Below, in pieces: positions 4,341 to 63,905 of a stretch of 64,000 bases of DNA. Below the pieces are notes generated by a model. The model searched no databases. It saw nothing but the letters and a program-made list of their open reading frames with translations, and had not been told where the DNA came from. Within the stretch, counting starts at the first letter, position 1; the number at the start of each line of letters is the position of its first letter. The translations under genes were made by a program, and so were the position numbers. The stretch comes from Candidatus Pantoea persica (GTDB lineage: Bacteria; Pseudomonadota; Gammaproteobacteria; Enterobacterales; Enterobacteriaceae), in assembly GCF_013753875.1 (NCBI RefSeq), contig NZ_SMDS01000023.1:1-64000 (forward strand). Reading direction: 5' to 3'.

Positions 4341-4383
4341 ACGGCGAATCCCCCCTGCGTTGGCACGATCGACACCTGATAAA

Positions 4384-4406
4384 AACGGGAACTTGAGGTT
4401 CCCGTT
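4384..4406. terminator. Bidirectional terminator between trmA and yijD
   Basis: Inverted repeat AACGGGAAC / GTTCCCGTT with a five-base loop, A-rich on the left and T-rich on the right. It sits between two convergent genes. Confidence 0.8.
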
Positions 4407-4412
4407 TGTCTG

Positions 4413-4769
4413 TCAGTCGTTTTTCTTACGGCGCCTCATCTTCACGCCGATCCAGAACACCAGCGCCACCATCAGAATAGTGGGAATAAAGTTCGAGCCG
4501 ATATCGGGATACTCCGCGCGCACCAGCGCGCTGTAAACCAGAATGCCCAGCAGGAAAAACGCCGCCGCCAAGCCCGGCATGCCATCCGGCATATTGTGGT
4601 TCAGGTAACGCTGATGCAGACTCCAGACCGCCAGCCCCAGCGCGATAATCGGGAAGACAGAAAACGGAACAAAGGCGCTGAACAGCACGGAAAACGAGCC
4701 GTTGATCGCCAAACCGGTGACAAAAGCCAGCAGCAGCGTGCCCTTATCGCGGGAAGTCGGTTGTGTCAT
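4413..4769 (-). CDS. yijD: Inner-membrane protein YijD (DUF1422)
   Basis: A 118-residue protein with four predicted membrane segments (roughly residues 10-28, 33-50, 66-82 and 92-110) and a basic C terminus (KMRRRKKND). It aligns along its whole length with E. coli YijD, including [11 protein letters not shown] and FWIGVKMR. The function of the family is unknown. It follows fabR after 16 bases and is probably in one operon with it, as in E. coli. It is intact. Confidence 0.95.
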
Positions 4770-4785
4770 AGCATTATCCTTATCG

Positions 4786-5430
4786 TTACTCTTCGGGTTT
4801 TTCTAGGGTAACCGCCAGACGCTCCTGCTCGCGGCGATACCAGTAATAGGCGCCTTTCGCAATCATGCGCAGCTGCAGCACCAGCCGATCTTCGAGCTTG
4901 CGGCGCTGCTCAATATCGACATCGAGCGCTTCCGCTCCCGCGCTAAAGACAATAGTCACCATAGCTTCCGCCTGCGCCTCAGTAAAGCTGCGCGGCATGC
5001 GGTTTTCAACCTCAAGGTAATCGGCCAGCTCGGCGATAAAGTGCTGGATTTCGCGCGCGACCGCGGCGCGAAACGCGGCGGAGGTGCCGGAGCGCTCGCG
5101 CAGCAGCAACCGAAACGCATTGGGGTTATTGCCGATAAACTCCATAAAGGTGGAGACCGAGGTTTTGATAATGCTGCCGCCCTTAGCGATACGCTGGCGC
5201 GCCTGGCGCATCAGCTGGCGCAGCATCAGCCCGCTCTCGTCGACCATGGTCAAACCCAGCTCATCAACATCTTTAAAATGGCGGTAAAAAGAGGTGGGCG
5301 CGATACCGGCTTCCCTGGCGACCTCGCGCAAACTTAAACTGGCGAAGCTGCGTTCGGCGCTGAGCTGGCTAAATGCCGCTTCGATCAGCGTACGTCTTGT
5401 ACGTTCTTTCTGTTGCGCTCTGACACCCAT
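4786..5430 (-). CDS. fabR: TetR-family repressor FabR of unsaturated fatty-acid synthesis
   Basis: In E. coli, FabR represses fabB and fabA and so sets the ratio of unsaturated to saturated fatty acids. This protein has 214 residues with the TetR helix-turn-helix at about residues 30-55 ([20 protein letters not shown]), which is very close to E. coli. The C-terminal ligand domain is full length. It is divergent from sthA and upstream of yijD, the E. coli order. No lesion was seen. Confidence 0.95.
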
Positions 5431-5618
5431 TCTCTCTACCTTGTGACGTGTTAGACGGTCACTATAACAAACTTATCAGCGAACATAGGCCAAACTTTGT
5501 GACTTGCCTGTGAACCTCTCGCTTTGTCAAACCGGGTGGAATTTCACTGTTAGAATTCAGATGTGCGCGGCGAGATGTTAGAATCTCGTTGTAAAATAGA
5601 AACATAGGGCGTACTGGT

Positions 5619-6518
5619 ATGCAAAAGTCTTACGATTACGATGTCATCATGATTGGCTCCGGACCGGGAGGTGAAGGCGCGGCCATGGGCCTAGTGAAGC
5701 AGGGAGCGCGCATCGCAATGATCGAACGCTACCATAACATCGGCGGCGGTTGTTCGCCCTGGGGCACGATCCCGTCTAAAGCGCTTCGCCACGCAGTCAG
5801 TCGCATCATCGAATTCAACCAAAACCCGCTTTACAGCGATCACACTCGCCTGCTGCGCTCGTCGTTCGCCGACATTCTTAACCACACGGAAAACGTCATC
5901 AGCCAGCAGACCGCAATGCGCCAGTGCTTTTTCGAGCGCAACTGCTGCGAGCTGTTTCAGGGCGACGCGCACTTTATCGACGCCAACACCATCGAGGTCG
6001 AACGGCGTTTCTCGATCAGGAGATGTCCGACTCGCTCTCTTACCACTTATGGAACAGCAGCGTCGTTATCCGCCACAACGAAGAGTTTGAGAAAATCGAA
6101 GGCGTCGACGACGGTGTGATTATGCACCTGAAGTCGGGCAAAAAGATCAAGGCGGACTACCTGCTCTAATACCATTCCGGAAATCAGCTCTTTGGGCAAA
6201 ACTGAGCAGCAGCTGACGGCGATGAAAGTGCCGTATGAAGTGGGCCGCGCGCAGTTCAAGCATCTGGCGCGCGCGCAGATTGTCGGCATGAACGTCGGTA
6301 GCCTGAAAATCCTGTTCCACCGCGAAACCAAAGAGATCCTCGGCATTCACTGTTTTGGCGAGCGCGCGGCGGAAATCATTCACATCGGCCAAGCGATCAT
6401 GGAGCAGAAAAACGGCGGCAATATCATTGAGTATTTCGTCAACACTACCTTTAACTACCCCACCATGGCCGAAGCCTATCGCGTGGCCGCGTTGAACGGC
6501 TTAAACCACCTGTTTTAA
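5619..6518 (+). pseudogene. sthA: Soluble pyridine nucleotide transhydrogenase SthA, broken
   Basis: SthA moves reducing equivalents between NADPH and NADH. The FAD-binding start ([14 protein letters not shown]) and residues to about 130 are present. About 80 codons, including much of the NAD domain, are then missing and the frame changes. The middle piece from FLDQEMSD to KADYL follows, then a second gap of about 75 codons before TIPEISS and the normal dimerisation domain to the C terminus (GLNHLF). Two internal deletions make it non-functional. Its last 18 bases overlap the end of convergent oxyR. Confidence 0.95.
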
Positions 6519-7418
6519 CAAAGCGTCCAGATAGCCCTGCATATGGGTACGAATCGCTTCTGCCAGCTGCTCATAGCGGCTGCGCAGAGGCGAGCAGGGA
6601 CGGTAGACCAGCGCGATGGTGCGCTGCGGCACGGGCTTATAGCACGTCAGATAGCATACGCCGTCACGCACGCGCTCCTGCGGCACCGCCAGCGCAGGCA
6701 GCAGCGTGATGCCGCTACCGGCCGCGATCATATTGCGCAGCGTCTCCAGACTGGTGGCGCGGAAATGGGTATCTTCGTCGGCGCCCGCTTCAAAGCAGAA
6801 GCCCATCGCCTGATCGCGCAGGCAGTGGCCATCCTCCAGCATCAGCAACCTTTCGCCCGCCAGATCGGACATGGGAACGCGATCGCGATCGCGCCACGGA
6901 TGATCCTGATAGACCGCCAGCTTCATCGGCTCGTCAAAAAGCGGCACCTTAATAAAGGCTTCGCTCTCTTTCACCAGCGCCAGAATCGCGCAGTCGAGCT
7001 TGCCGCTGTCGAGCTGTGCCAGCAGCTGCTGGGTCTGCGCTTCATGCAGGTACATCTCGAGTTTGGGAAAGGTCTGATGCAGCATGGGAATAATCTGCGG
7101 CAGCAGATAGGGGCCGGTGGTGGGGATCAGCCCGATATGCAGCGGACCGGACATGGCTTCGCCCTGCTGGCTCGCCATCTCTTTTAAGACTTTCACTTCC
7201 CGCAGCACAGTGCGCGCCTGATCGACCAGCAGCATGCCCGCCTGGGTGAACAACACTTTACGGCTGGTTCGTTCCAGCAGCATCACGCCCAGTTCACCTT
7301 CCAGCTTGCGGATCTGTCCACTCAGCGTGGGCTGGCTGACGTGGCACGCATCTGCCGCGCGACGAAAATGGCGATGTTCCGCAAGAGAAACCAGATATTC
7401 AAGATCGCGAATTTTCAT
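6501..7418 (-). CDS. oxyR: Hydrogen-peroxide sensor and LysR-family activator OxyR
   Basis: A 305-residue regulator of the peroxide response, the same length as in E. coli. The start MKIRDLEYL matches the family; a 45-residue upstream extension is ignored. The winged helix-turn-helix lies at residues 15-40 ([19 protein letters not shown]). The redox pair Cys199 and Cys208 ([14 protein letters not shown]) is intact, so the sensor should still work. The neighbouring peroxiredoxin target and sthA are both broken. Confidence 0.97.
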
Positions 7419-14464: not shown

Positions 14465-16847
14465 ATGAACGAACTAATATTCCGCAATGCGAAGTAATAT
14501 CAGTATGCTTGGCAAACTGCTCGGGGATATGATCAAGGATGCACTAGGAGAGAACATCCTCGATCGGGTGGAGACCATCCGCAAACTCTCAAAGTCGTCC
14601 CGCGCGGGAAAATGACACTCATCGCAAGGAGCTGCTGACGACGCTGCAAAATCTGTCAAACGACGAGCTGCTGCCCGTGGCGCGCGCGTTCAGCCAGTTT
14701 CTCAACCTCACCAACGTCGCCGAGCAGTACCAGACCATTTCCCGCAGCGGCGAGGGTGCCAACCATCCTGAGCTGTTGAAGCGCACCTTTGAGCGCCTGA
14801 AACAGCAGCCGGACGTCAGCGAAAGCGCCATTTGCGAGGCGATCGAGTCGCTGTCGCTAGAGCTGGTGCTGACCGCGCAACCGACCGAAATCACCCGCCG
14901 CACCCTGATCCATAAGCTGGTCAAGGTTAACAGCTGCCTGAAGCAGCTCGACCACAGCGGCGTCTCCGACTACGAGCGCAACCAGATTTTGCGCCGCCTG
15001 CGTAAGCTGGTGGCGCAGGCGTGGCACACCGACAAAATCCGTAAATATCGCCCGACGCCGATCGACGAAGCCAAATGGGGCTTCGCGGTAGTGGAAAACA
15101 GCCTGTGGGAAGGCGTGCCCGCCTTTCTGCGCGAGCTGAACGAACAGGTGGAAGCGGCGTTCGGCATTACGCTGCCGGTCGACTTTATACCGGTGATATT
15201 TACCTCCTGGATGGGAGGCGATCGCGACGGCAACCCGAACGTGACCGCCACTATCACGCGCCATGCGATGCAGCTCAGCCGCTGGAAGGCCGCCGATCTC
15301 TTTCTGCGCAATATCGGCGTGCTGATCTCCGAGCTGTCGATGTCGGAATGCAGCGACGAAGTGCGCGAGCTGTGCGGCGATCCAGAGGCGATCGAGCCTT
15401 ACCGCATGATTCTGAAGCGCATGCGCAGCCAGCTTCTCACTACCCAGGCTTGGCTTGAGCGCCGCCTGAAGGGCGAGCAGCTGCCGCGCCCGGCAGACCT
15501 GCTGGTCTCAACAATCAGCTCTGGACGCCGCTCTACGCCATTTATCAGTCGCTGCAGCAGTGCAATGTGGGCATTATTGCCAACGGCCAGCTGCTGGATA
15601 CGCTGCGCCGCGTGAAGTGCTTCGGCGTGCCGCTGGTGCGCATCGACCTGCGTCAGGAGAGCACGCGCCATACCGAGGCGATCGCCGAGGTGACGCGCTA
15701 TCTCGGCCTGGGCGACTACGAAAGCTATTCGGAAACCGACAAGCAGGCGTTCCTAGTGCGCGAGCTGAACTCCAAGCGCCCGCTGCTGCCGTGCAACTGG
15801 ACGCCGAGTGACGAGACGCGCGAGGTGCTCGAAACCTGCCGCGTCGCCGCCGAAGCGCCGCAAGGTTCGATTGCCACCTACGTTATCTCGATGGCGAAAA
15901 CCCCGTCCGACGTGCTGGCCGTGCACCTGCTGCTAAAAGAGGCGGGCATCACCTTCTCCATGCCGGTGGCGCCGCTGTTCGAAACCCTCGACGATCTCAA
16001 CAACGCCAACGACGTGATGAGCCAGCTGCTGAGCATCGACTGGTATCGCGGCTTTATCCAGGGCAAGCAGATGGTGATGATCGGCTACTCCGACTCGGCG
16101 AAAGACGCCGGCGTGATGGCCACCAGCTGGGCGCAGTATCAGGCGCAGGACGCGCTGATCAAAACCTGCGAAAAAGCCGGCATCGCGCTGACGCTTTTCC
16201 ACGGGCGCGCCAGCGCATGCGGCGCTGCTGTCGCAGCCGCCGGGCAGCCTGAAGGGCGGCCTGCGCGTCACCGAGCAGGGCGAAATGATCCGCTTTAAAT
16301 ATGGTCTGCCGGAAGTCACCATCGCCAGCCTGTCACTCTACACCGGCGCGATTCTGGAGGCCAACCTGCCGCCGCCGCCGGAGCCGAAGTAGGAGTGGCA
16401 CAGCATTATGGATCAGCTGTCGGCGCATTCCTGCGCTATGTATCGCGGCTACGTGCGCGAAAATCCCGACTTCGTGCCCTACTTCCGCTCCGCCACGCCG
16501 GAGCAGGAGCTGGGCAAACTGCCCCTCGGCTCGCGACCGGCGAAGCGTCGCCCGACCGGCGGCGTCGAATCGCTGCGCGCCATTCCGTGGATCTTTGCCC
16601 GGACGCCGACATTAAAGCGGTGCTGACCATCGCCAACGACAAGCATCTGATGGCCGACCAGCCGTGGATCGCCCAGTCAATCGCGCTGCGCAAAGTCTAT
16701 ACCGATCCGCTCAACGTGCTGCAGGCGGAGCTGCTGCAGCGTTCGCGCGAGCAGGAAGCGCGCAGCGAAGAGCCCGATCCGCGCGTCGAACAGGAGTTGA
16801 TGGTTACCATCGCTGGCGTCGCGGCCGGCATACGCAACACCGGCTAA
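14465..16847 (+). pseudogene. ppc: Phosphoenolpyruvate carboxylase Ppc, broken
   Basis: Ppc refills oxaloacetate from PEP and is normally about 883 residues. Long stretches align with E. coli, but the gene has several lesions: a disrupted first 10 codons, an extra A in a GGAAAAT run near 14610, a frameshift near 15510, and loss of the catalytic Gly-rich loop after LFHGR near 16205. A TAG lies at 16390 and about 95 codons are missing after AIPWIF near 16595. The C terminus (RNTG) remains. It cannot make enzyme. Confidence 0.95.
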
Positions 16848-16998
16848 CCTCGCCTCAGATCGGGCAGACCACTGCCCGGCTCTCTTCTGCGCCCAGCGCG
16901 CGATTCGCCTGCGGACGTTATATCCGCCCGCTACTTTGCTCTATTCTTTAGAACCATTCATCAGTCAGATACCTTTTTCAATTACAGGAGTTACCACT

Positions 16999-17630
16999 AT
17001 GATGGCGTCAGGAATCTCTCGCATCTGAATGCGGACCGGCATGTTGCTCGGCGCCGCACTGCTGGTGCTTAACCTCGCTGCGTGCGGGGACAAAGAAGGC
17101 GAGCAGCGCAAAGTCTTTATCGACTTCTTGCAAAATACCGTGATGCGCAGCGGCGAGCATCTGCCAAGCCTGAACGAAAATCAGAAGCAGAACTTTGGTA
17201 AATTTGCCGGCGACCACGCCATTCTGTACGGCTTTTCCCAGCAGGTGAACAAGGCGGTGGAACAGGTTATGCGTCCGGAGGTGGACAGGCTGTCGGCTAT
17301 CCGCGTGCCGCAGGATTATCTGACGCGCCGCGCCAGGCGAACGGCGCACTGGTCATCGTGACGCAGCAGCTGGAGAGCGCTAAAATGCAGGCGAAAAGCA
17401 AAAAAGCCGCACTGGAGCAGGAAGATGATCTGAAAAAAGTCTATGACGGCGTCTACGATAAGGTCGTCACGCAGCCGGCAAATCAGCTGGTGCCGAAGCT
17501 AAGCCAAGTCGCGGTACAGGCGGGCGACTTCCTTGAATAGCAGGGCCCTCACGTCAGCTTCAAAAACGACGCCGTGCCTGCCTTTCTCTTCTTCCTTTCA
17601 GAATTTCCTCAGGCCACCGCACAGCGGGGT
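16999..17630 (+). pseudogene. yiaF: Lipoprotein YiaF (DUF3053), broken
   Basis: A lipoprotein-type start with LNLAACGDKEG as lipobox, then IDFLQNTVMRSGE as in E. coli YiaF. A TGA replaces Trp at 17026 in the signal peptide. A frameshift after QDYLT (near 17330) and a TAG at 17538 (GDFLE, then QG) break it further. The last recognisable part is near 17630. In E. coli yiaF follows ghrB; here ghrB is 37 kb away, which shows rearrangement. Confidence 0.85.
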
Positions 17631-17706
17631 GTGATATGCCGCATTTTTGCCCCCAAATTGTTTGCTATCATGATTGCATATATTAAACAAACCGCCCAGG
17701 CAAAAG

Positions 17707-17722
17707 AGTGATATTTATCACA
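17707..17722. promoter_or_regulatory. CRP binding site upstream of mtlA
   Basis: AGTGATATTTATCACA is a near-perfect GTGA-N6-TCAC palindrome, 240 bases upstream of the mtlA remnant. The mtl promoter of E. coli has several CRP sites. The rest of 17631-17954 contains a second half site (GATCACACTTA, about 17833) but no gene. Confidence 0.75.
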
Positions 17723-17954
17723 AACTCAGTCTAGTTGCGGTGAAAAAGCAGTAAAACGCTGTTTTTAAAGCCCTTTTTTGTTATCTTACTCACTAAAATA
17801 TCCCCCGACCCCGCCCTGAATAGGTAATCCAGATCACACTTAGTCCGACCGCTACGCAGCGTCATATTCGCGTGCTAGAGTCCGCGTGCATACAGTAATA
17901 GCCACGGGGCTCCCCGCCGTGCTGGCTTAACAAAAACAAACGCGCTCTCTTATA

Positions 17955-19474
17955 TTGCGGCGCATCTCAGGTATCATCACTGCGCTGTTTATTCCAACCG
18001 GCTGGATCCCGAACGCCACGCTGGCAAAGCTGGTGGGTCCGATGATTTCCTACCTGCTGCCGCTGACCTCGATCTTTGTCGAACCGGCGAAAATCCTGTT
18101 CCTCAATAAGCCATTAGCCACGGCATCTTCTCGCCGCTGGGTATTCAGCAGGCTGAGCGAAGCAGGCAAGTCCATTTTCTTCCTGATTGAAGCCAACCCA
18201 GGCTCAGGCATGGGCGTGCTGGTGGCCTATATGATGTTCGGCCGCGGCAGCGCCAGGCAGTCTGCGGGCGGCGCAGCGATCATCCACTTTCTCGGCGGCA
18301 TCCACGAAATCTACTTCCCGTACGTGCTGATGGCGCCGCGCCTGCTGCTGGCGGTGATTCTGGGCGGCATGACCGGCGTCTTCCCCCTGACGCTGCTCAA
18401 CGGCGGTCTGGTATCTCCCGCGTCGCCCGACTCAATCCTGGCGGTGCTGGCGATGACGCCGAAAGGCGCCTATTTCGCTAATATCTCGGCGATCTTCGCA
18501 GCCTTTGCGGTCTCTTTCGTGGTCTCTTCTATCTGCTGAAAACCAGCAAGGTGAAAGAGGATGATGATATTGAAGCGGCGACCCATCGCATGCAGGATAT
18601 GAAAGCGCAGTCCAAAGGCCAAGCCGTAGCGGACGCGCCAGTCGTCGCCGACGCCAACAGCATTGACGTGCACCACGTGCGTAAAATTATCGTCCCTGCG
18701 ACGCTGGTATGGGCTCCAGCGTGATGGGCGCGGGCGTGCTGCGTAAAAAGGTGCAGGACGCCGGTCTGACTAACGTCTCTGTCATCAACAGCGCGATTAA
18801 CTCGCCGCCGGGCGACGTCGATCTGGTAATCACCCACAGCGACCAGACCGAACGCGCGATGCGCCAGGCGCCGCAGGCGCAGCATATTTCGCTGAACAAC
18901 TTCCTCGACAGCGCGCTCTACAGCAACCTGACTGACCGTCTGTCTGATGGCGGTGAACCGCAGCGAAGCGCACTGCGAAACGGTGCAGAGCGTGCTGGCG
19001 GACAGTTACGACACCAGCAATGCGCACCTGTTTAAGCTGGGCGCGGACAATGTGTTCCTCGGCCTGAGCGCCAGCAACAAAGAGCAGGCAATCCGCTTCG
19101 CTGGCGAGCAGCTGGTGAAAGGCGGCTACGTGCAGCCGGAATACTTTGACACGATGCTGGCGCGTGAAGCGCTGACGGCAACCTATCTGGGCGAATCGAT
19201 CGCTGTGCCGCACGGCACGCTGGAAGCGAAAGATCGCGTATTGAAAACCGGCGTGGTCTTCTGTCAGTATCCGCAAGGCGTGTTGTTCGGCGAGGATGCG
19301 GATGACGTGGCGCGTCTGGTTATCGGTATCGCGGCGCGCAGCAACGAGCACATCCAGGTGATCACCAGCCTGACCAACGCGCTGGACGACGAGAGCGTGA
19401 TTGAGAAGCTGGCGCATACCACCAACGTGCAGGAAGTGCTGGATCTGCTGTCAGGCAGCACGGCGACCGCCTAA
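17955..19474 (+). pseudogene. mtlA: Mannitol PTS transporter MtlA (EIICBA), broken
   Basis: Takes up mannitol and phosphorylates it. The start codon and the first 30 or so residues are absent; the sequence begins inside the first membrane segment (GIITALFIPTGW). About 90 codons of the IIC domain are deleted after MISYLLP. Frameshifts occur near 18130, 18535, just before the IIB active site CDAGMGSS (near 18700), and near 18950. The IIA domain (from ADSYDTSNA to the end, with the His of VPHGT) is open. mtlD and mtlR, which normally follow, are missing. Confidence 0.94.
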
Positions 19475-53506: not shown

Positions 53507-53960
53507 ATGGAATCGCAGACAATCGCGCCAAAACGCTAGTGGTATATCATGCCCATCGTGTTTATTACCTACAGTCTGGCGTATCTCGATCGCGAAAACT
53601 TTAGCTTCGCCTCTGCGGCAGGGATAAACGACGATCTGGGCATTACCAAAGGCATGTCCTCGCTGCTGAGCGCGCTCTTATTTCTCGGCTACTTCTTTTT
53701 TCAGATCCCCGGCGCGGTCTATGCCGAACGCCGCAGCGTGAAAAAGCTGATCTTCTGGTGTCTGGTGCTGTGGGGCGTCTGCGCCTAGCTGACCGGCGTG
53801 GTGAGCAATATCCCGATGCTGGCGGCGATTCGCTTCGCGCTCGGGGTGGTGGAAGCGGCGGTGATGCCCGCCATGCTGATCTACATCATCAACTGGTTCA
53901 CCAAATCGGAGCGTTCGCGCGCCAACACCTTTCTCATCCTCGGCAACCCGATGACGGTGC
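53507..53960 (+). pseudogene. kguT: MFS transporter KguT, 5' fragment
   Basis: Anion:cation symporter-type MFS protein. [21 protein letters not shown] and [23 protein letters not shown] are typical. TAG lies at 53537 (in KRWWYI) and 53786. At about 53960 (LGNPMTVLW) the sequence joins the next gene, so about two thirds of the transporter is missing. It probably carried 2-ketogluconate, inferred from context. Confidence 0.85.
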
Positions 53961-54698
53961 TGTGGATTTTGACGTCGAGGCGCTTAATCAGCGCGAGGTG
54001 CTGCTGATCCATACGCCAACGGTGCTCACCGAGACAGTAGCGGATACCATGATGGCGCTGGTGCTGAGCAGCGCGCGCCGTGTCACCGAGCTGGACGCTT
54101 GGGTGAAGGCGGGTCACGGGGATCAGAGTATCGGCCCGGACAAATTCGGCATCGACGTGCACCATAAAACCCTCGGCATTCTGGGCATGGGCCGCATCGG
54201 CATGGCGCTGGCGCAGCGTGCCCATTTGGGCTTAGGCATGAAGGTGCTCTATAACGCGTGCCGCGAACGTGTAGAGGCGCAGTCGCGCTTCGGCGCGCAG
54301 CGCTGCGATCTGGAGACGCTGCTGAAAGAGAGCGACTTCGTCTGCATAAGACTGCCACTGACCGAGCAGACCCACCAATCGGCGCGGCGCAGCTGAAGAT
54401 GATGAAGCCGAGCGCCATTCTGATCAACGCCGGACGCGGGCCGGTGGTCGATGAAGAGGCGCTGATCGCCGCGCTGAAAGCGGGCACGATCCACGCCGCG
54501 GGCCTCGACGTGTTTGAGAAAGAGCCACTGCAGGCGTCGCCGCTCTTCTCGCTGCCCAGCGTGGTGGCGCTGCCGCACATTGGCTCCGCCACTCACGAAA
54601 CGCCCTACGGCATGGCGCAGGATGCGGTGGAAAACCTGATCGCCGCACTTAGCGGCAAGGTCGAGAAAAACTACGTCCACCCGGACATCCTGAAGTAA
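53961..54698 (+). pseudogene. ghrB: 2-ketoaldonate/hydroxypyruvate reductase (GhrB/KguD), 3' fragment
   Basis: D-isomer-specific 2-hydroxyacid dehydrogenase, starting at about residue 80 ([17 protein letters not shown]). The NAD motif [28 protein letters not shown] and the catalytic region [13 protein letters not shown] are present. A frameshift lies near 54380. The 5' part was removed with the end of kguT. E. coli has ghrB next to yiaD, consistent with this location. Confidence 0.9.
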
Positions 54699-54779
54699 TC
54701 CGCCCTTCCCATTCACGCCCGCCGCTGGCGGGCGTTATCGTTAATCCCCCCCATTCGTCACATATTTTTAACTTTTATA

Positions 54780-55956
54780 TGGCTTTTTCTCAGTTCGGCG
54801 ACAAGTTTACCCAGCACACCGGCATTTCCCACCTGATGGAAGATATGGGCGCGGGCCTGCGCACCCCCGGCACCATTATGCTCGGTGGCGGCAATCCGGC
54901 GCAGATCCCGGCGATAAATAACTATTTTCAGCAGCTGCAGCAGATGCACAACGAGGGCAAGCTGAGCGAAGCGCTCTGCAACTATGACGGCCCGCGCGGC
55001 TGGCCCGTGACGGCGCAAAATACCGCCCTGACTAACGGCAGCCAGAGCGCTTTTTTCTATCTGTTTAACCTGTTCGCCGGCCGCCGCGCCGACGGCGGCA
55101 AAAAGCGCGTGCTCTTTCCGCTGGCGCCTGAATATCTCGGCGATGCCGACGCCGGACTGGACGAGGGGCTGTTCGTCTCCAGAAGGCCAGTTCAAATACC
55201 ACATCGATTTTTACCATCTGCCGCTGCATAACGACATCGGCCTGATCTGCGTGTCGCGTCCGACCAACCCTACCGGCAACGTGGTGACCGACGAGGAGCT
55301 GATGCAGCTCGACGCGCTGGCGCAGCAGCACGACGTGCCGCTGCTGATAGACAACGCCTACGGCGTGCCTTTCCCTAGCATTATTTTCAGCGACGCGCGT
55401 CCGCTGTGGAATCCCAACATCATTCTCTGCATGAGCCTGTCGAAGCTGGGCCTGCCGGGCGCGCGCTGCGGCATTATCGTCGCCGACGAGAAGACCATCA
55501 GCGCCCTGAGAAATATGAACGGCATTATCAGCTTGGCGCCAGGCAGCATCGGCCCGGCGATCACCGCCGAGATGATCCAGCGCGGCGATCTGCTGCGTCT
55601 GTCGGAAGGAGGTGATTAAGCCCTTCTACCAGGCTAAGGTGGCCCAGACCAGCGCCATCCTGCGCCGCCACCTCTCCGAGGAGCGCTGCCTGATCCACAA
55701 GCCCGAAGGGGCGATTTTCCTCTGGCTCTGGTTCCGCGACCTACCGATTACCAACGAAGCGCTCTATCAGCGCCTGAAGGCGCGCGGCGTGCTGATGGTG
55801 CCGGACCACGTCTTCTTCCCCGGTCTGGAGCAGGCGTGGCCGAATATCCATCAGTGCATGCGCATGAACTACGTGCCGGATGCAGAAAATATCGAGCGCG
55901 CGGTGAATATTCTGGCGGAAGAGATCGAGAAGGCGTTTACGGATCAGGCGGCCTGA
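54780..55956 (+). pseudogene. avtA: Valine-pyruvate aminotransferase AvtA, broken
   Basis: PLP aminotransferase acting on valine and alanine. MAFSQFGDKFTQHTGISHLM, MLGGGNPAQIP, ALTNGSQSAFFYLFNLFAG and the PLP-Lys motif SLSKLGLPGARCG match E. coli. About 22 codons are missing after YDGPRG (near 55005), and frameshifts lie near 55180 and 55612. Valine and alanine transamination would depend on other enzymes. Confidence 0.95.
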
Positions 55957-56100
55957 CGGCGCAAGGCGCGTGGTCAGCCGGAGAAGCGCGGCGTTAACTG
56001 CTGTCGGCGGCGGCGCTATGGCGCGCGGCCTTTAGGCACGATGCCGGGCGGTCTGACACAGCATCGCGCCGGAACGTGACGTCCCGCGCGGCGCGGGCAC

Positions 56101-57275
56101 CTACGCCAGCGACTCCCGGCACCACGCCGCCAGCTGACAGATCGCCTGCGCCACCTCCTCATTCCAGCCAAATCCCGCGTTCAGCCGGAAGCAGTGGTCG
56201 TAGCGATTATGGCCCGGCGCTATGCCGATGCCGGCGTTGCGCGCCTTCAGAAACAGCGCGTGCACGTTCAGCGCCTACGGCGGCATCTCTCCACCCACAG
56301 CACATAGCCCCCTTCCGGATCGGAGACGCACATGCCCGGCGGAAACTCCCGTAGCAGCACCTGCCGCATCCGCTGGATCTGACTTGCCAGCTCGCGCCGC
56401 AGCTTGTTCAGGTGCGCGTCGCAGCCACCGCTGCGCATCAGTTCGGCAATCGCCGCCTGCGACAGCGTTGAGGTGCCCATAGTGGAGGTGTACTTCAGCG
56501 ACGCTGTCTTGCGCATAAAGTTGGTGCTGTGCACCCAGCCGATACGGATGCCGGGCGCGACGGTTTTCGAGAAGCCGCTGCAGAGAATGGCGTCGGGGCT
56601 GAACGCACGCATCGGAAACGGGCGACGCTCGCCGAAAGCGGTGTCGCCAAAATATCATCTTCCACAATCACTACGTCGTTTTCGTCCGCCTGACGCGCAA
56701 TATAGGCCTTCTGCTCGTTGGGGATCTATTTGCCGAGCGGATTGTTGACGTTGCTGATAGTGAGAAACGCCTGCACCGCCCGACGGCGGAACAGCGCGGT
56801 CAGTTTCTCTATGTCGACGTAGCCCTATGGCACCGCCTCGACCTTAATCACGCGCAGGTTCAGGTTGTGCAGCATCTGTAACAGTACAAAGTAGCAGGGC
56901 GACTCCACCGCTACCACGTCGCCGGGCGTCAGGGTGGCGCGCAGCGACACTGCCTCAATGCAGCCGTTGGTGATCAGGATGTCGTCAGCGTTGATATTAC
57001 AGCCATACTCCACCGCGCGCCGAGCAATTTCATGCTTCAGCGGCAGGTAGCTGGTGCCTTTACCGTAGTGCCAAGCAGCGCCGGTTTGCTGTAGCCCATC
57101 TGGCGCATCAGCAGCCCGATCTTTTTGACCGGATAAAGCGAGCTGTCAGCGTGCGCACCGAAGGCAACCGGCTGTCGGGCGGCAGAGAACCGCTGTGGAT
57201 AGCCTGCTTAATCTGCTCGGCTATCTGGCGGTAGCGGCTGCTCTGGCTCTCCTGTTCTTCCCTTTCAAGCGGCAT
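56101..57275 (-). pseudogene. MocR/GntR-type regulator with aminotransferase domain, broken
   Basis: GntR winged helix at the start (YRQIAEQIKQAIHSGSLPP, RLPSVRTL), followed by an aminotransferase-like PLP domain (DDILITNGCIEAVSL, SGFSKTVAPGIRIGW). Part of the helix-turn-helix and the linker are deleted near 57150. TAG codons lie at 56825, 56726 and 56275, and frameshifts near 56640 and 56290. It resembles YdcR. It is divergent from the biosynthetic cluster and may have controlled it. Confidence 0.85.
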
Positions 57276-57515
57276 CTGTTCCACCCTATATCGTCCAGAT
57301 CTGTGTATATTCAAGAGAGTACATTCAAAGTAATTTAGGCTGCATCTCTTAATTATTTTATGACGCGCGTTCGCCTCGCTTTTCCCTGCGCGTCGCCCTG
57401 GCGAACGCCGCGGCCAGCAGATTCATTACCGTCCCGCTTTATAGCCTGTTTTTCATGGAATCAGCAACTTCCGTCGCATTTAAACGAATTTACCTGCCAA
57501 AGGAAAACGCAAAAA

Positions 57516-58790
57516 ATGAATAATCTGTCCACCATGATGAGAGAAATTGAAGGCTACCTGACGCCGACAATCATCGATTCTGCTAAACGGTGCGCGCAGC
57601 ACCTGCTCGCCTACGGCGGCGGCAAAGATAGCAGCTACATGGTGGCCTACGTCCGCTATATTCAGGGGCTTATCTGGCAAGCGCAGTGACACCTTTCGCC
57701 TGCGCATTAGCATCAACCGCCACGCCGCAATGAGCAGCAGCGTGATGGAGAATATCGATCGCGTTTACCGCGCGCTGGCTATTCCCCATGACGCCTTTGT
57801 CGAATGTCTGCTGATCGACGGCATGCAGATCCATCCGTTTCAGGCCGATCTGCCATTTCCTGAGGCGGTGCGCCAGCAGAACCGCAACGACGTTCTGATG
57901 AACGGCCACCGCTTCCGCGCCGACGCGCGCTCCACCTTCTGCAACGCCTGTAACCTCAGCATGGTGAATTCGTTCGGCCTCGCCGCGTACTACGACGGCG
58001 GCGTCGACGTGATTATCACCGGTGACTCGCCGCAGGAGCAGACCGCCTATGTCGCCTGGGCGCGCTACCGTTCTCGCCTGTTCAGCGCCCCTGCCGCCGA
58101 GAAGGGCCAGGGCTTTCGCGGCTTTTTGCAGACGCTCGACGGCGTGGCCGAACGCTACTCCACCGCCATTCACGGCGCCAGGCGCGTGACGCCCGCGCAC
58201 CGCATCATGCACCAGCTGTCGCGCGATCCGCTGTTCTTCAATATCTATCAGGACACCGCCTACGAAGCTGGGGCGCACTGGGCGCTGCTCCACGACTTTA
58301 TGCGCTTTCGCTTTCGCTTCGATGCACTGATGTTCAGCTTTTCCGAATCGGACTGCGGCAATCCAACGCTGATGGCCCATATCCGCGGCCTGCGCGCGGA
58401 AACGCTGCTGCAGCGCAGCTACGGCAAAGGCGTTCGCGAGTACGTGCGCTTTGCGATCGGGCTGATGGCGCAAAAATATTTCCCGGCGCCACTGATCGAC
58501 AAAATGGCGGCGCGCTATCATGATGAGGCCGCCATCCAGCGGCAGCGCGCGGCGCGCTTCGCACAGGAGGCTTTCGGCCTCAGCGAGGCGCAGCTGGTTT
58601 ACATGATCTATTCCCTTTATCGCGCACAGGGCAGCGAACTACGCGGCTGGCTGACGCAGCAGCGCATCGCGCTGGAGGAGTCGGCGATCCGCTGTCGCGC
58701 ATGCTGCGCTTCGACCCGCATAAGGCGGTGATTCAGGTAAACAACGGCGTCCTGCAGGATACCGTGACCGAAGTGATCTCTGGGCGCTGA
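57516..58790 (+). pseudogene. PP-loop ATP-pyrophosphatase-like enzyme, frameshifted
   Basis: N-terminal AYGGGKDSSYMV is a PP-loop (SGGxDS type), the AMP-forming site of asparagine-synthetase and related enzymes. Other marked segments are RSTFCNACNLSMVN, with a Cys pair, and VIITGDSPQEQTA. One frameshift lies near 57675 and another near 58690; otherwise about 420 residues are readable. An AAGGAAAA site precedes the ATG. It is the first gene of a five- or six-gene cluster. The substrate is unknown. Confidence 0.7.
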
Positions 58791-58808
58791 TCCCTGTAAG
58801 GCGGATCG

Positions 58809-60077
58809 ATGAGGAAAATTTTTCTGCAAATAGGCGCGACGCGCGACGGCCAGAGCCCTTATTGCGTGGTGGCGAAGCGCAAGGGCTATTTCACCGTGCT
58901 GGCGGAGATGAGCGATTTTGTCGACTACCAGTCGCTGAGCCTCGCGCTGCCGTTTGATTTAATCGTGCGCCTCGACCGCCTGGAAAATCCCTGGGAGGTG
59001 CTGCAGGCCTGCCTGCGCGCTGGGCTGCTGGAGCATCCGCGCGTGGTGCTGGCGGGCTTCGAAGCCTACAACGTCTGCGCCGGGCGGGTGCGCGAAATAC
59101 TGGCGGGGCCTGACGCGCCGCACACCTTTATTCCGCTGGATAAATACGCCCAGCGCATGGCGTTGAAAAAGGCCTAGCCGCGCTTTCCGCAGCCGGAGTT
59201 CCGCTTCTTCGCCTCGCCGCTCAGCATTCTCGACGCGCATCAGGCGTTAATCTATCCCTGCTTCATCAAGCCGGTGGATGGCGGCGGCGGGCTGGACATC
59301 TGGCTGGTAAAGGAGCCGGGGCAGCTAGGCGCCGTAGTGCGCAAGCTGGAGGAGACTATGAACTATGGCGGGCGCGGCTTTAGCGGTTTTATCGTCGAAA
59401 GCTTGCTCGACGGCGATAAGTATTCGCTGCAGGGCTTGGTGCATAACGGCCGGCCGCACGCCTTTACCTGCTGCCAGAAGGTGATAGAGCAGCAGCGCGA
59501 CGCGCAGGGCTGCGTCAACTTTTACGAATCCGGCCACGTCGCGGTCGCCGACGACGCGCTGCCACCAGCGTTCGCCAGGCTGATGGCGTACTGCTGCGAC
59601 ACCTTTGACTACCGCTGCGGCGCGTTTCATATCGATTTTATCGTCGTCGACGGCGTGCCGCACTTTGTGGAGATGGGCTTCCGCCTATCCGGCATGGGGC
59701 TGGTGAATCTGATTCAGGAGGTCACCGACATCAAATGGGCTGAGGTGGCGTTCCGGCGCACGGCAATATGCCCGCGCTGCGCTTTCCGGCATCGCCACGC
59801 GCGGTGGGCCAGCTGCGCATGCACCAGCCGGCGCAGCTGAAAAGAGGCGGAGAGCTGGATTGCCGAACATCAGCAGGGGGTGCTGCTGCTGCTGAATCCC
59901 CCCAGCCTGCAGGTCTCGCGTCTCTCGTCGCTCTACGCCGATCTGACGCGCCATGCGGGCCTGCTCGGTATTCTGCGCCTGAGCGCCGGCGGCCGGGACA
60001 ATATTCTGGCGATGTTCAACGACATGGTGCGTGCGACGTCGCGTATTTCAGGAGGAAATTTACTATGTGCAGAATGA
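58809..60077 (+). pseudogene. ATP-grasp ligase, broken
   Basis: About 420 residues: MRKIFLQIGATRDGQSPY, a central ATP-grasp lid (FIKPVDGGGGLDIWLV) and the metal site FHIDFIVVDGVPHFVEMGFRLSG. Members join a carboxylate to an amine through an acyl phosphate, often making dipeptides. TAG lies at 59175, and frameshifts near 59750 and 59845. The stop overlaps the start of the next gene, so the genes were coupled. Confidence 0.8.
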
Positions 60078-60118
60078 TTCTGGCGCACGGCGACTTTGAC
60101 GCGGCGCAGGTGCTGAGG
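60065..60118 (+). pseudogene. Class II glutamine amidotransferase, N-terminal stub
   Basis: The frame opens MCRMILAHGDFDAAQVL after a strong AGGAGG site. A Cys directly after the initiator Met is the catalytic nucleophile of class II (Ntn) glutamine amidotransferases. After about 18 codons a deletion joins it to a different gene. The assignment rests on the N terminus and on context beside a PP-loop protein. Confidence 0.55.
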
Positions 60119-60377
60119 CGGCGCGCTGCGGATTTTCAATAAGAAATGGCTGCCGGAGGATGAGCGCCTCAAGACGCCGAGCAAGCTGGGCTACCAGACT
60201 GGCGTGGTGGCGCAGAGCGAAATCTGCGAGTTCTCGCCGCGCAGCGGCGACATCTATATGTTTAATCCCGCTTTTTATCATGAAATCGATCGGGTTGAAG
60301 GCGATACCCGCATCACCATGGGCTTCTTCTTTGGCCTGACCGACAAAAAAATGAAACACGCGATTGCGTGGAGCTGA
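60119..60377 (+). pseudogene. 2-oxoglutarate/Fe(II)-dependent oxygenase, C-terminal fragment
   Basis: The fragment RIFNKKWLPEDERLK to MKHAIAWS contains GDIYMFNPAFYHEIDRVEGDTRITMGFFFG in the original frame order. Its distal His and the following Arg fit the second half of the facial triad and the 2-oxoglutarate site of this superfamily. The first half, with the HxD pair, is gone. It is joined to the amidotransferase stub by deletion. Confidence 0.6.
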
Positions 60378-60404
60378 CGCCTGAGGCGCAGCCTTGCAAG
60401 ACGA

Positions 60405-60898
60405 AGAGAACACGATACAACCACCTTTACAGAGATAACCGGGCTGCTCGATCGTCACGGCGCCGATTACCGCGTTGTGGAGCATGAGGCTATTGGCCAG
60501 ACCAACGTCATCAGCGCCCTGCGCGGCAACGCGCTGAGCCAGGCGGCAAAGGCGATGGTGCTGGAAGTAACGATGCCGGACAGCGCAGCGCTTTCTGCTG
60601 GCGATCGTTCCGGGCGACAGCAAAATCAACTTCAAAAGCGAGGCGCGCGCCATCGGCGGGAAAAAATCGAGCTTCGCCTCGCCGGAGATGTCGCTGCGTG
60701 ATGGGCGCGGTGCCGCCCTTTAGTTTTGATGACCGGCAGGCGCTGCGCGTCGATACGCGCCTGCGCGACGTCGGTACGCTGTGGTTCAACGCCGGGGCGC
60801 TAGAAAAATCGATCACCCTCAACGCAGCGGACTATTTCCGCATCGTTGGCGACGCCAGCGGCGCCGATATCGCCACGCCCGTGGCGGTTAACGCCTGA
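60405..60898 (+). pseudogene. YbaK/ProX-type aminoacyl-tRNA deacylase, broken
   Basis: Segments TEITGLLDRHGADYRVVEHE, GNALSQAAKAMVLEV, KINFKSEARAIGGKK (read in a second frame) and MGAVPPFSF are characteristic of the YbaK family, which hydrolyses mischarged tRNA. A frameshift lies near 60590 and no good start codon is visible. A free-standing member in a biosynthetic cluster could protect translation from the cluster product; that is inference. Confidence 0.75.
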
Positions 60899-60914
60899 CG
60901 GCAGGGGAAAAACT

Positions 60915-61576
60915 ATGTCAGTTAAAGATATGCTGCTGGCGCTGTGCGACGTCGTCGCCTGGGGCATCAACTTCGTGGTGATTAAGCTCGGTTTGCAGGG
61001 CATGCCGCCCTTTTTGCTAGCGGGTCTGCGCTTTACCCTAATAACCTTTCCGGCGATTTTTTTCGTGCGCTGTCCCGCCATTCCGCTGCGCTGGCTGGTG
61101 GTGTACGGCATGACCATCAGCTTTGGGCAGTTCGCCTTTCTCTTTCTCGCCATCAAGCTCGGCATTCCCGCCGAGCTAGCGTCGCTGGTACTGCAGGCGC
61201 AGGCGTTTTTTACTCTCTGCTGCTGGCGGAGAAGCTGCGCTGGAACCATATCGCCGGCATTATGATCGCCACGCTCGGCATGTTTATGCTGGCGACGGCG
61301 GGCATGGAAGGGCAGTCGGCGACGGGCATTACCCTGACGACCATGATGCTGACGCTGGCGGCGGCGCTCTCCTGGGGAATAAGCAATATCACCAACAAGA
61401 TTATTCTACGCAACCGCAAGGTGCCAGTGGTGGGGCTGCTCAGCGCGGCGTTAGTGCTGGATGAACACCTCACCGCGCAGCAGATGCTGGGCGCCTCGGT
61501 GATTATCGTGAGGCTGATGGTGAACGTCTTCGGCGGTCTGGTCAGCCAGCATCTCACCATGCGCCCCAATCCCTGA
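60915..61576 (+). pseudogene. eamA: EamA-type O-acetylserine/cysteine exporter, broken
   Basis: DMT-superfamily permease. WGINFVVIKLGLQGMPPFLLAGLRF and ISFGQFAFLFLAIKLG follow E. coli EamA closely. A frameshift near 61215 and a large deletion between NKIILRNRK and VPVVGLLSAAL (near 61420, about 90 codons) remove much of the second half. It may have exported the cluster product or cysteine-type amino acids. Confidence 0.88.
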
Positions 61577-61632
61577 GCGCGGTGCTGCAACGGCGCCGTT
61601 GTCTGGCGGCGAGCCGCCGAGCGCACGCAAAA

Positions 61633-61656
61633 AAAACGCCGCTGCTGCGGCGTTTT
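61633..61656. terminator. Bidirectional terminator between eamA and ibpA
   Basis: AAAACGCCGC / GCGGCGTTTT stem with a four-base loop between convergent genes, A-rich before and T-rich after. Confidence 0.9.
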
Positions 61657-61673
61657 CTCTTTATTGAACCTGA

Positions 61674-62090
61674 TTAGTTCAGGATTTCAATCCGGCGCGG
61701 TTTCGCCTCTTCGGGGACGATGCGTTCGAGATCGATACTTAGCAGGCCATTTTCCAGACGTGCGTCGCGTACGACGATATGGTCGGCCAGCTGGAATTTG
61801 CGCTCAAAGTTGCGCTCGGCGATACCCTGATAAAGGTATTTACGCTCGATCTGCTCTTCGGGATGCGCGCCGCGTACGATCAGCACGTTATCCTGAGCGG
61901 TGATGTCGAGTTCGTTCTGGGCGAATCCAGCCACCGCGATAGTGATGCGATAGTGGTTTTCGCTGACCAGTTCAACATTGTACGGAGGGTAACCGCCGTT
62001 GCTCTGGTTCTGGTTCGATTCAAGCAGGTTAAACAGACGATCAAAACCGATAGCAGAGCGATAAAGTGGAGCAAGATCAAAATTACGCAT
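61674..62090 (-). CDS. ibpA: Small heat-shock protein IbpA
   Basis: Holds denatured proteins for refolding by DnaK and ClpB. It has 138 residues (E. coli 137). The start [20 protein letters not shown], the alpha-crystallin core ([28 protein letters not shown]) and the C-terminal IEI motif are intact. No ibpB follows. The upstream region keeps a heat-shock promoter and an RNA thermometer. Confidence 0.97.
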
Positions 62091-62116
62091 GGAATGACTC
62101 CTGATATTCAGCAAGT
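62091..62116 (-). promoter_or_regulatory. ROSE-type RNA thermometer over the ibpA ribosome site
   Basis: The transcript reads ACUUGCUGAAUAUCAGGAGU just before the start. The UUGCU block can pair with the AGGAG ribosome site, the hallmark of ROSE elements in ibpA leaders. The pairing would melt at high temperature. Confidence 0.75.
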
Positions 62117-62367: not shown

Positions 62368-62719
62368 ATGATGAAAATGAAATTATTACAGGCAATTCCT
62401 CTGGCTGACGCACTAGCCTGCTGCACTGTGGCGACCTCCGGCTGCTCCAGCATGATGGCGCATACCGGGCCGAATCGTCACCAGCGCCGCGCTTCTGACC
62501 GACGACAACAGCAACTGGGCGCTCAAGCCGCTGGTGCTGATCGATCTGCCCTTCTCCGCCGTGCTGGATACACTGCTGGTCCCGTGGGATTATGCGCACA
62601 ACGACGACGATAAATCTCTCTACTCCCCGCGCGAACGCATTCTGCAAAGCGAAAAGCTGAACCACACGCAGGAAAACCTGGCACAGGCCGCGCCTTGGCC
62701 CGCTAAGCCGACACCGTAA
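62368..62719 (+). pseudogene. yidQ: Lipoprotein YidQ (DUF1375), broken
   Basis: A signal peptide with lipobox near SGCSSMMAHTG as in E. coli YidQ. A small deletion near 62470 shifts the frame; the rest (DDNSNWALKPLVLIDLPFSAVLDTLLVPWDY) continues in another frame. E. coli also has ibpA, yidQ, yidR and yidA in this order, so synteny supports the call. The end overlaps convergent yidR. Confidence 0.88.
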
Positions 62720-63829
62720 ACAGCTGCCACCAGCCGTCGACGTCGCGTATAAACGCAATCGGCTCTCCGTCCGACGACCAGACCACCACGTCGCCGCTCG
62801 TCGGCAACGAGATCGGTCAGCGGCTGGCAGCCGCCGCTGCACATATCGCAACGCATGATCCGATCGTCGCTGATAAAGGCGATGGCGTCACCCTGTGGAT
62901 GCCAACTGAATGCCGACTGTACCAACTGCGCCAGCCCGCACGTAAAGGTGAGGCGACGCTGCCGCACGCCCGCCGGCGGGGCGGGCAGCTGCGTTTCCGT
63001 GCCCACCAGAGGCGCCTCGCCCGGCCGGGCGTACGCCTCCAGCGCCTCCGGCAGATCGACGATAAAGACCTCCGGCCGCTTTTCGCCGCTGGCGGAGAGC
63101 GTATCGCCGATAAAGGCGATGGCCCAGCGCTGCCAGCCTACGTCGGGCCGTTGATAGCCGCGCGTGCCTGTCCATCCCTCTTCAATAGGCGCGGTTGATC
63201 TCATCACTGCTCGGCCGCGGCGCGACGTTGGTCTGGCTCACCAGCACGCAAAAATAGCTGCCGTCATATTCGCACGGATGCTGCTTTTCCGGGATAACCG
63301 CGCGCAGCGGCACCGCTACGCCAACGTTGCGCAGATCCGCTTTCACCTCACTCTCGTGCATCACATGATCGTTATAAGTAAAGCTAATGCGCGAGCCGTC
63401 AGGGCTGAACATATACATATGGGAGCCGCCGCGCAGCGCGCCGGGCGTAAAGGGCAGCGTGATGTCGCAGGCGTCGAGGTTTTGCGCGCGACCGTTTTGC
63501 ACGATAACGCCGCGGCGATGGTGAAAGTCGTAGCGCCACGTGTCGTCCGGATGTTCCGGTGCGTGGATGCAGAGGTAGCGCGGCGGCAGATCGGGGCTGA
63601 CGGTGACGACGCCAACGTGCGCGCCTTCGGTCGCCCGATAGAGCACCTCGATCGCGCCAGTCGACACGTTGACGCGCTCGATGGTTTCGCTGGTGAACGA
63701 GGCGCCAGAGGGGCGAACGTCAAACACCAGCCACTGGCTGTCGGCGGCCCAGACGTTGCTGTTGGTCAGTTGATGATGGCATGGGCTGAAGTGAGTTGTT
63801 TTTCGCGCACAGGGCAACCTGGCTAACAA
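62703..63829 (-). pseudogene. yidR: YidR (DUF3748, TolB-like propeller), broken
   Basis: DSQWLVFDVRPSGASFTSETIERVN, ILRGGSHM-type and FTYNDHVMHE segments match E. coli YidR. Frameshifts lie near 63795, 63185 and 62800, and about 50 codons are missing near 62945 (FTCGLAQL joined to QSAFSWHP). The function of the family is unknown; the fold is a beta-propeller. Confidence 0.9.
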
Positions 63830-63905
63830 TGTTGCCCCACACGCTACGCCAAAAGCGCTAAAGATGCAGCCGACTTTTTTTTGCTGGCCGCCTGCGCAGC
63901 GCCGG

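Follow-up and report, generated by a model that had tools for sequence, protein, structure and literature searches.

A decayed PP-loop, amidotransferase and oxygenase gene cluster in Candidatus Pantoea persica, with intact congener copies that probably build and export a modified amino acid or dipeptide

Towards the end of a 64,000-nucleotide stretch of the Candidatus Pantoea persica genome (contig NZ_SMDS01000023.1, positions 1 to 64,000; hereafter the window) lies a run of broken genes, at about 57516-61576, for a PP-loop protein, an ATP-grasp ligase, a class II glutamine amidotransferase, a 2-oxoglutarate (2OG)-Fe(II) oxygenase, a YbaK-like deacylase and an EamA-type exporter, beside a divergent MocR-type regulator gene. 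Did these remnants once form a single pathway, and what might it have made? We found the same set intact and colinear in congeners, where a modified amino acid or dipeptide, made for export, is its probable product. That the window holds the remains of a dedicated biosynthesis-and-export cluster, whose amino acid was modified by amide or amidine chemistry, hydroxylated, ligated and exported, is a reading to which we give roughly even chances.

Broken genes in the window and intact sets in congeners

The window pieces were mapped by tblastn with the intact proteins of one congener (locus L017), and 56000-61700 was read in all frames. Pfam E-values in the list are those of the window pieces themselves; the amidotransferase and YbaK names were taken from intact congener proteins, and the PP-loop name from motif and fold.

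56098-57314, minus strand: broken gene for a MocR-type regulator (GntR helix-turn-helix plus aminotransferase-like domain), five frame pieces, 77-91% identity to the L017 protein (tblastn)
57273-57359, no strand: intergenic stretch between regulator and cluster, a putative divergent promoter/operator (alignment of 12 loci and the window)
57480-58787, plus strand: remnant of the PP-loop (GGGKDS) ATP-pyrophosphatase gene, three frame pieces (sequence and congener comparison; fold predicted from an intact congener protein)
58809-60074, plus strand: ATP-grasp ligase gene, disrupted by in-frame stops and locally shifted (77% identity to the L017 protein by tblastn; Pfam, 8e-10)
60065-60139, plus strand: stub of the class II glutamine amidotransferase gene, overlapping the end of the ATP-grasp gene (tblastn; intact congener protein matches PF13230)
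60117-60377, plus strand: C-terminal third of the WelO5-type 2OG-Fe(II) oxygenase gene (PF22814, 5e-7; tblastn)
60420-60895, plus strand: YbaK-like aminoacyl-transfer RNA (tRNA) deacylase gene, in three frames (tblastn; intact congener protein matches PF04073)
60915-61576, plus strand: EamA-type exporter gene, frameshifted, in two frames (Pfam EamA, 1e-6; tblastn match 60915-61573)

As the initial annotation had proposed, all members are broken in the window, through frame pieces, stops, stubs and losses. The PP-loop remnant comprises 57480-57680, 57679-58692 and 58674-58787 at 71-87% identity, with the congener start codon corresponding to position 57516, and the ATP-grasp gene is interrupted by in-frame stops at 59175 and 59838 and by a shifted stretch near 59745-59840. 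The amidotransferase is reduced to residues 1-18 of 235 (60065-60118) and the oxygenase to residues 181-265 of 266 (60117-60371); these two remnants abut because about 1.2 kb is missing between them, the window's 60065-60377 corresponding to about 1.5 kb in loci L014 and L017. Residues 61-134 are missing from the regulator and residues 180-252 from the exporter.

For every cluster gene in the window, congeners were found to carry an intact homologue at the corresponding syntenic position. All genes named in the initial annotation were located at or near where it had placed them, and its expectation of an intact version in relatives was borne out. Across the genus, 50 of 61 genomes contain the PP-loop gene. 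One of these is the window's genome with its broken copy; among the remaining 49 (of 60 others), G032 carries the gene in three pieces. Eleven congener regions were fetched, and all 11 matched every gene in the same order. At least 90% of the expected length was retained in 10 of these loci for the PP-loop gene, 9 for ATP-grasp, 11 for the amidotransferase, 10 for the oxygenase and 10 for EamA, while the YbaK-like protein was recognized in 10 of 11 by motif and in the eleventh by BLAST.

Joint occurrence, selection and transfer

A scan of named genomes, in which loci were located via the PP-loop gene, returned 35 loci, mostly from Pantoea, including P. agglomerans, P. dispersa, P. septica, P. 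latae, P. piersonii and P. brenneri. The other carriers were an Enterobacterales metagenome-assembled genome, Hafnia psychrotolerans, Pseudomonas fragi D12 and the type-B symbiont of Plautia stali. All six enzyme and exporter genes were matched in 34 of the 35, some only in part, and the PP-loop gene mostly adjoins the same aminotransferase gene. In the reverse direction, the oxygenase and the amidotransferase were sought in the 11 congeners that lack a PP-loop match, including one genome of only 74% completeness; ten had neither, and the eleventh, with a genome of 2.4 Mb, held broken pieces of both. As far as tested with the PP-loop, oxygenase and amidotransferase genes, the cluster is inherited or absent as a whole, which settles in its favor the co-occurrence on which the initial annotation had staked its reading. 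The broken state of all window members and neighbours might suggest a chance neighbourhood of unrelated decaying genes, but this explanation is refuted by the co-occurrence, with colinear sets in several genera, joint presence and absence and purifying selection, and its probability is negligible.

We determined that all six genes are under purifying selection. Among intact copies the median ratios of nonsynonymous to synonymous substitution (dN/dS) were 0.09-0.16, the largest single value being 0.23, from 7-9 sequences per gene and 15-28 usable pairs. Saturation of dS removed 8 of 36 pairs for each of three genes, 6 of 21 and 7 of 28 for two others, and none of 21 for EamA. Between regulator and cluster, the intergenic sequence (57273-57359) is strongly conserved among the aligned Pantoea loci and retained in part in Hafnia.

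Wider sampling placed PP-loop relatives in 4 of 246 genomes at family level (3 genera), 3 of 394 at order level (all from the own genus), 1 of 369 at class level (the own genome) and 7 of 398 at phylum level (five from one other genus); these draws overlap and count the own genome, and such a first look may miss distant relatives. Colinear sets outside Pantoea were found in two further genera of the family and in Hafnia, with a partial set in Pseudomonas fragi. The cluster is probably ancestral in Pantoea, where its guanine-plus-cytosine (GC) content in four loci lies within 2 points of the surroundings or slightly above. The Hafnia cluster has 44% GC against 47% and 53% around it, and that of P. 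fragi 45% in a 58% GC neighbourhood, and transfer to both is apparent. Hafnia psychrotolerans (L062) holds the whole set between transposase/integrase-like genes upstream (3380-7127) and plasmid-type genes downstream (14717-19420), both named by eye, which suggests a mobile island. P. fragi D12 has the PP-loop, amidotransferase, oxygenase and EamA genes. An asparaginase-family gene (PF00710, 3e-24; L068:13157-14134) directly follows its EamA gene, the match starting at profile position 52 and leaving the catalytic N-terminus unmatched, and another asparaginase-type gene (PF01112) lies upstream at L068:7146-8105.

This breadth within one genus invites the explanation that the set serves a conserved cellular role in Pantoea, as a compatible solute, a signal or in nutrient scavenging, with no antimetabolite involved and with other reasons for the exporter and the deacylase. 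In favor of it are the wide occurrence of the PP-loop gene (49 of 60 other genomes), its usual position next to one particular aminotransferase gene and its host-like GC, a pattern unlike that of the sporadic antibiotic clusters of the genus; in a published survey, 12 such clusters, under strict criteria, each occur in at most 1.86% of 2,527 Pantoea genomes (PMC11350110). Judged by prevalence (49 of 60 species genomes), the set is unlikely to be identical with one of the 12. On the other side, about ten congeners lack the set, several of them with full-size genomes, the cluster has apparently moved to Hafnia and P. fragi, and an exporter and a tRNA-editing enzyme in one operon suit a toxic amino acid better. 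We judge a purely cellular role to be rather unlikely.

The PP-loop protein and its partners

Membership of the PP-loop superfamily is supported by both the motif and the predicted fold. The motif AYGGGKDS, a PP-motif of SGGxDS-like form, is invariant in 25 of 25 aligned proteins, also in Methylobacter. No Pfam or NCBIfam family was matched at E 0.1 beyond a sub-threshold DUF5998 row; neither Asn_synthase (PF00733) nor TIGR03573 (N-acetyl sugar amidotransferase) was among matches at that threshold, at which NCBIfam returned 0 families, and a profile search of solved structures gave no credible match by sequence. An AlphaFold2 model of an intact congener protein, built from 25 closely related sequences, reached a predicted local distance difference test score (pLDDT) of 69.9 and a predicted template modelling score of 0.73. 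With VIA-align 2, its best match was the N-acetyl sugar amidotransferase 8wex from Legionella (Z 13.4, root-mean-square deviation 4.8, 278 residues), followed by NcsA (9.8), TilS (9.6), GMP and NAD synthetases (8-9) and asparagine synthetases (7.4 and 7.2). A profile comparison gave 76% with sugar amidotransferases (9 sequences out of 12 loci) against 24% with GMP synthetases (4 out of 7); the sequences were chosen by motif, and the result lends weak backing to this kinship.

The initial annotation had taken the PP-loop protein and the amidotransferase for two halves of an asparagine-synthetase-like enzyme. Its amidotransferase half stood: the intact protein is of GATase_4 type (PF13230, 27.8 bits against a cut-off of 23), and Cys2, HVRHAT, HNG and FDS are invariant in 8 of 8 aligned sequences, P. 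fragi included, so that glutaminase activity is expected in intact copies. For the other half, the structure prediction that the annotation had called for returned a PP-loop fold, but one nearest to the sugar amidotransferase and not to asparagine synthetase. The corresponding explanation, a two-gene glutamine-dependent asparagine-type synthetase whose product would be hydroxylated asparagine or its dipeptide, draws on the split gene pair and on the asparagine synthetases in both fold lists, including ranks 3 (the human enzyme) and 4 in Foldseek, where all matches were weaker than E 0.001. Against it stand the missing Asn_synthase match, the higher VIA-align 2 scores of sugar amidotransferase, NcsA, TilS and GMP and NAD synthetases, and a Methylobacter gene set with its own asparagine synthetase A next to the PP-loop gene. 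We therefore regard a plain asparagine-type synthetase as an unlikely, if reasonable, account.

The Methylobacter set was the only match in a plasmid search for PP-loop relatives. On plasmid NZ_CP091425.1 of Methylobacter sp. YRD-M1 (L080:10375-17093), one run encodes asparagine synthetase A, which scores 309.2 bits against a cut-off of 309, a B12-binding protein resembling methylaspartate mutase S (53 bits, cut-off 110) and a protein of methylaspartate mutase E type (PF06368, 1e-87), which reaches 185 of the equivalog's 390 bits. A PP-loop protein of 39% identity, EamA and, on the opposite strand, MocR belong to the same run. If these genes act together, glutamate would be converted to 3-methylaspartate and then to 3-methylasparagine, and the PP-loop enzyme would act on such a molecule. 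The mutase and asparagine synthetase A thus indicate an aspartate/asparagine-type substrate, and since the run already encodes a separate asparagine synthetase A, plain asparagine synthesis is probably not what the PP-loop enzyme performs. We take the run to encode a probable sister pathway. Farther out, the plasmid carries His-Xaa-Ser maturase genes and transfer genes.

Cysteines C159, C162 and C295 are invariant in the aligned GGGKDS proteins, Methylobacter included, and a diverged homologue that lost the PP-motif (L105) lacks C162 and C295. A CxxC motif with a third cysteine resembles the [4Fe-4S] PP-loop thiolases of NcsA/TtcA type. The enzyme might accordingly be imagined to insert sulfur by an iron-sulfur cluster on the three cysteines, turning an amide into a thioamide amino acid that a cysteine-type exporter removes and a relative of the Cys-tRNA(Pro) deacylase polices. 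In keeping with this, NcsA with its [4Fe-4S] cluster ranked first in Foldseek and reached Z 9.8, and the exporter, an EamA-domain protein (PF00892), scores 392.5 bits against the O-acetylserine/cysteine exporter model PRK11453, under its equivalog cut-off of 472. However, 8wex scores clearly higher; family matches identified none of the six cluster proteins as a cysteine desulfurase, a sulfur carrier or a rhodanese; and a glutaminase partner with an intact signature in Pantoea, Hafnia and P. fragi would yield ammonia, not sulfide. Sulfur insertion appears quite improbable to us.

The remaining partners of intact congeners fall into recognizable families. The ATP-grasp protein matches PF02655/PF13535, and among proteins of solved structure the closest to it in sequence is the L-amino acid ligase BL00235 (5e-11); against the DdaF model it scores 34 bits, with a cut-off of 840. 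The oxygenase matches PF22814 (71.7 bits, cut-off 27, 9e-20), and its predicted model (pLDDT 67.8) aligns with WelO5 at Z 17.8 over 245 residues, the next family reaching 12.2. H147-N-D149, H235 and R245 are invariant in 19 of 19 sequences; the H147/D149 triad was assigned from the motif, which the ungapped HMMER alignment sets two columns off. The WelO5 halogenase has a glycine where hydroxylases have the Asp of the HxD triad, and the Protein Data Bank matches of the model include the WelO5 G166D variant. By sequence, the triad is of hydroxylase and not halogenase type, and halogenation was dropped as a candidate activity given HND, rather than Gly or Ala, in 19 of 19. The YbaK-like protein matches tRNA_edit (PF04073, 70.2 bits, cut-off 25.5) and falls far under the NCBIfam equivalog cut-offs (54.3 of 153.25 bits and 48.6 of 243 bits).

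Five genomes of one other genus (L109-L113) carry a PP-loop homologue of 27-32% identity adjoining a MocR homologue of 23-26%, with the other five cluster proteins unmatched at E 0.001 within about 19-20 kb. The PP-motif is altered in the three that were read (L110, L111 and L112, the last coming from the same genome as L105), and the homologue is possibly a sensor or regulator derived from the enzyme.

Proposed pathway, known systems and genome decay

We infer the following scheme for an intact cluster, in line with the general reading in the initial annotation as a small-molecule cluster with exporter, regulator and YbaK-like deacylase, which our results support. A free acidic amino acid or its amide, of aspartate/asparagine type, would be activated with ATP by the PP-loop enzyme, and ammonia released from glutamine by the class II amidotransferase would replace an oxygen, giving an amide or, as in the nearest fold relative, an amidine. 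The WelO5-type 2OG enzyme, with its HxD triad, would hydroxylate the product, and the ATP-grasp ligase would couple it with a second amino acid, yielding a dipeptide of lower toxicity. EamA would export the dipeptide, the YbaK-like deacylase would strip the free amino acid from tRNA wrongly charged with it, and expression from the divergent promoter would be under the control of MocR.

In its most specific form, this scheme posits a new PP-loop family that, with a class II amidotransferase, converts the side-chain amide of a free asparagine-type amino acid into an amidine. The amidine would next be hydroxylated, hidden within a dipeptide and exported, dedicated tRNA editing would confer immunity, and a Methylobacter sister pathway would start from glutamate mutase and 3-methylasparagine. 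We offer this version tentatively and hold it to be on the unlikely side. Amidine formation with such chemistry is known for sugars; here an amidine product is suggested by the fold of one model of moderate quality and by the separate asparagine synthetase in the sister cluster.

Several observations weigh against the proposed pathway as a whole. The PP-loop model is only moderate and weakest around the conserved cysteine motifs, Foldseek gave it no match at E 0.001 or better and ranked a thiolase, NcsA, first, and sequence similarity to WbuX proteins is weak. P. fragi lacks the ATP-grasp, YbaK-like and MocR proteins, and its PP-loop gene is frameshifted, such that this copy may be dead. The Methylobacter run, known from one genome, lacks the amidotransferase, oxygenase, ATP-grasp and YbaK-like proteins, and its chemistry may differ. 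In a few Pantoea loci other than the window, an individual gene is broken or shortened. Finally, antibiotics are not usually spread through most species of a genus, and the product could be a housekeeping or signalling compound instead.

Comparison with known systems was made at the level of enzymes and of whole clusters. The N-acetyl sugar amidotransferases (WbuX, TIGR03573; 8wex) provide the nearest predicted fold and the better of the two profile comparisons. Those sugar enzymes receive ammonia from a separate glutaminase subunit of HisH type and form an acetamidino product, whereas the partner in this cluster is a class II N-terminal nucleophile (Ntn) amidotransferase, there are no sugar genes among the six, and the neighbours look like amino-acid enzymes. 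With the carrier-free WelO5 halogenases (PF22814), the oxygenase shares family and whole-length fold, and it differs by the invariant HND. Bacilysin and dapdiamide, dipeptide antimetabolites, have L-amino acid ligases (BL00235, DdaF) as kin of the ATP-grasp protein, to which this cluster adds modifying enzymes and an exporter; the genes that we take to form the warheads of those compounds are not among the six cluster proteins.

The best conceptual parallel is the Hil operon of Pantoea ananatis and relatives, which has a free-amino-acid 2OG dioxygenase, an ATP-grasp carboxylate-amine ligase and an RhtA-type exporter, and for which a dipeptide antibiotic with self-detoxification has been proposed (PMC3684760). 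The cluster oxygenase is weakly similar to HilA (29 bits, cut-off 500), no HilB (PF10014) or HilC dehydrogenase match was found among the six cluster proteins, and a PP-loop protein, an amidotransferase, a YbaK-like protein and MocR are not among the genes given in the operon's figure legend (PMC3684760). PNP-1 shares a divergent GntR/aminotransferase regulator, the genes otherwise listed for it being of other types (PMC4010436). In the related genus Erwinia, the small 6-thioguanine ycf operon of E. amylovora encodes the PP-loop-like YcfA, whose structures stand at ranks 37 and 47 in Foldseek; identity with that operon was dropped, as YcfB is a NUDIX protein (PMC7994395) and no NUDIX protein is among the six. 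Searches of the open-licence full-text literature, judged by titles, abstract openings and passages, returned no paper describing the cluster, subscription literature lying outside the search.

Pantoea species colonize plants and insects, and some serve as biocontrol agents. The antibiotic clusters described for the genus are each rare (PMC11350110), in contrast to a cluster present in most species sampled. If the proposed pathway is true, it would represent a new natural-product family, a new PP-loop enzyme for which Pfam and NCBIfam hold no model, and a testable rule of self-protection by tRNA editing.

In the window itself the pathway cannot run; this copy is dead and the region is decaying generally. 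Flanking genes are broken too at 53507-55956 and 62368-63838: by eye, they encode a transporter, a dehydrogenase and an aminotransferase, a lipoprotein and a peptidase, with the dehydrogenase and aminotransferase genes upstream of the cluster and the lipoprotein and peptidase genes downstream. At 2.85 Mb the genome of the window is small for the genus, in which 57 of the 60 others span 3.9-6.6 Mb. The broken neighbours and the small genome thus point to general genome decay and not to an event aimed at the cluster. The cluster is also clearly degraded in two stink-bug symbionts, those of Euschistus servus (L059) and Plautia stali (L069), and decay in these and in the reduced genome suggests that the product matters outside such hosts. 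Amid the broken neighbours, one open reading frame on the minus strand at 61674-62114, which by eye resembles a small heat-shock protein, is still open.

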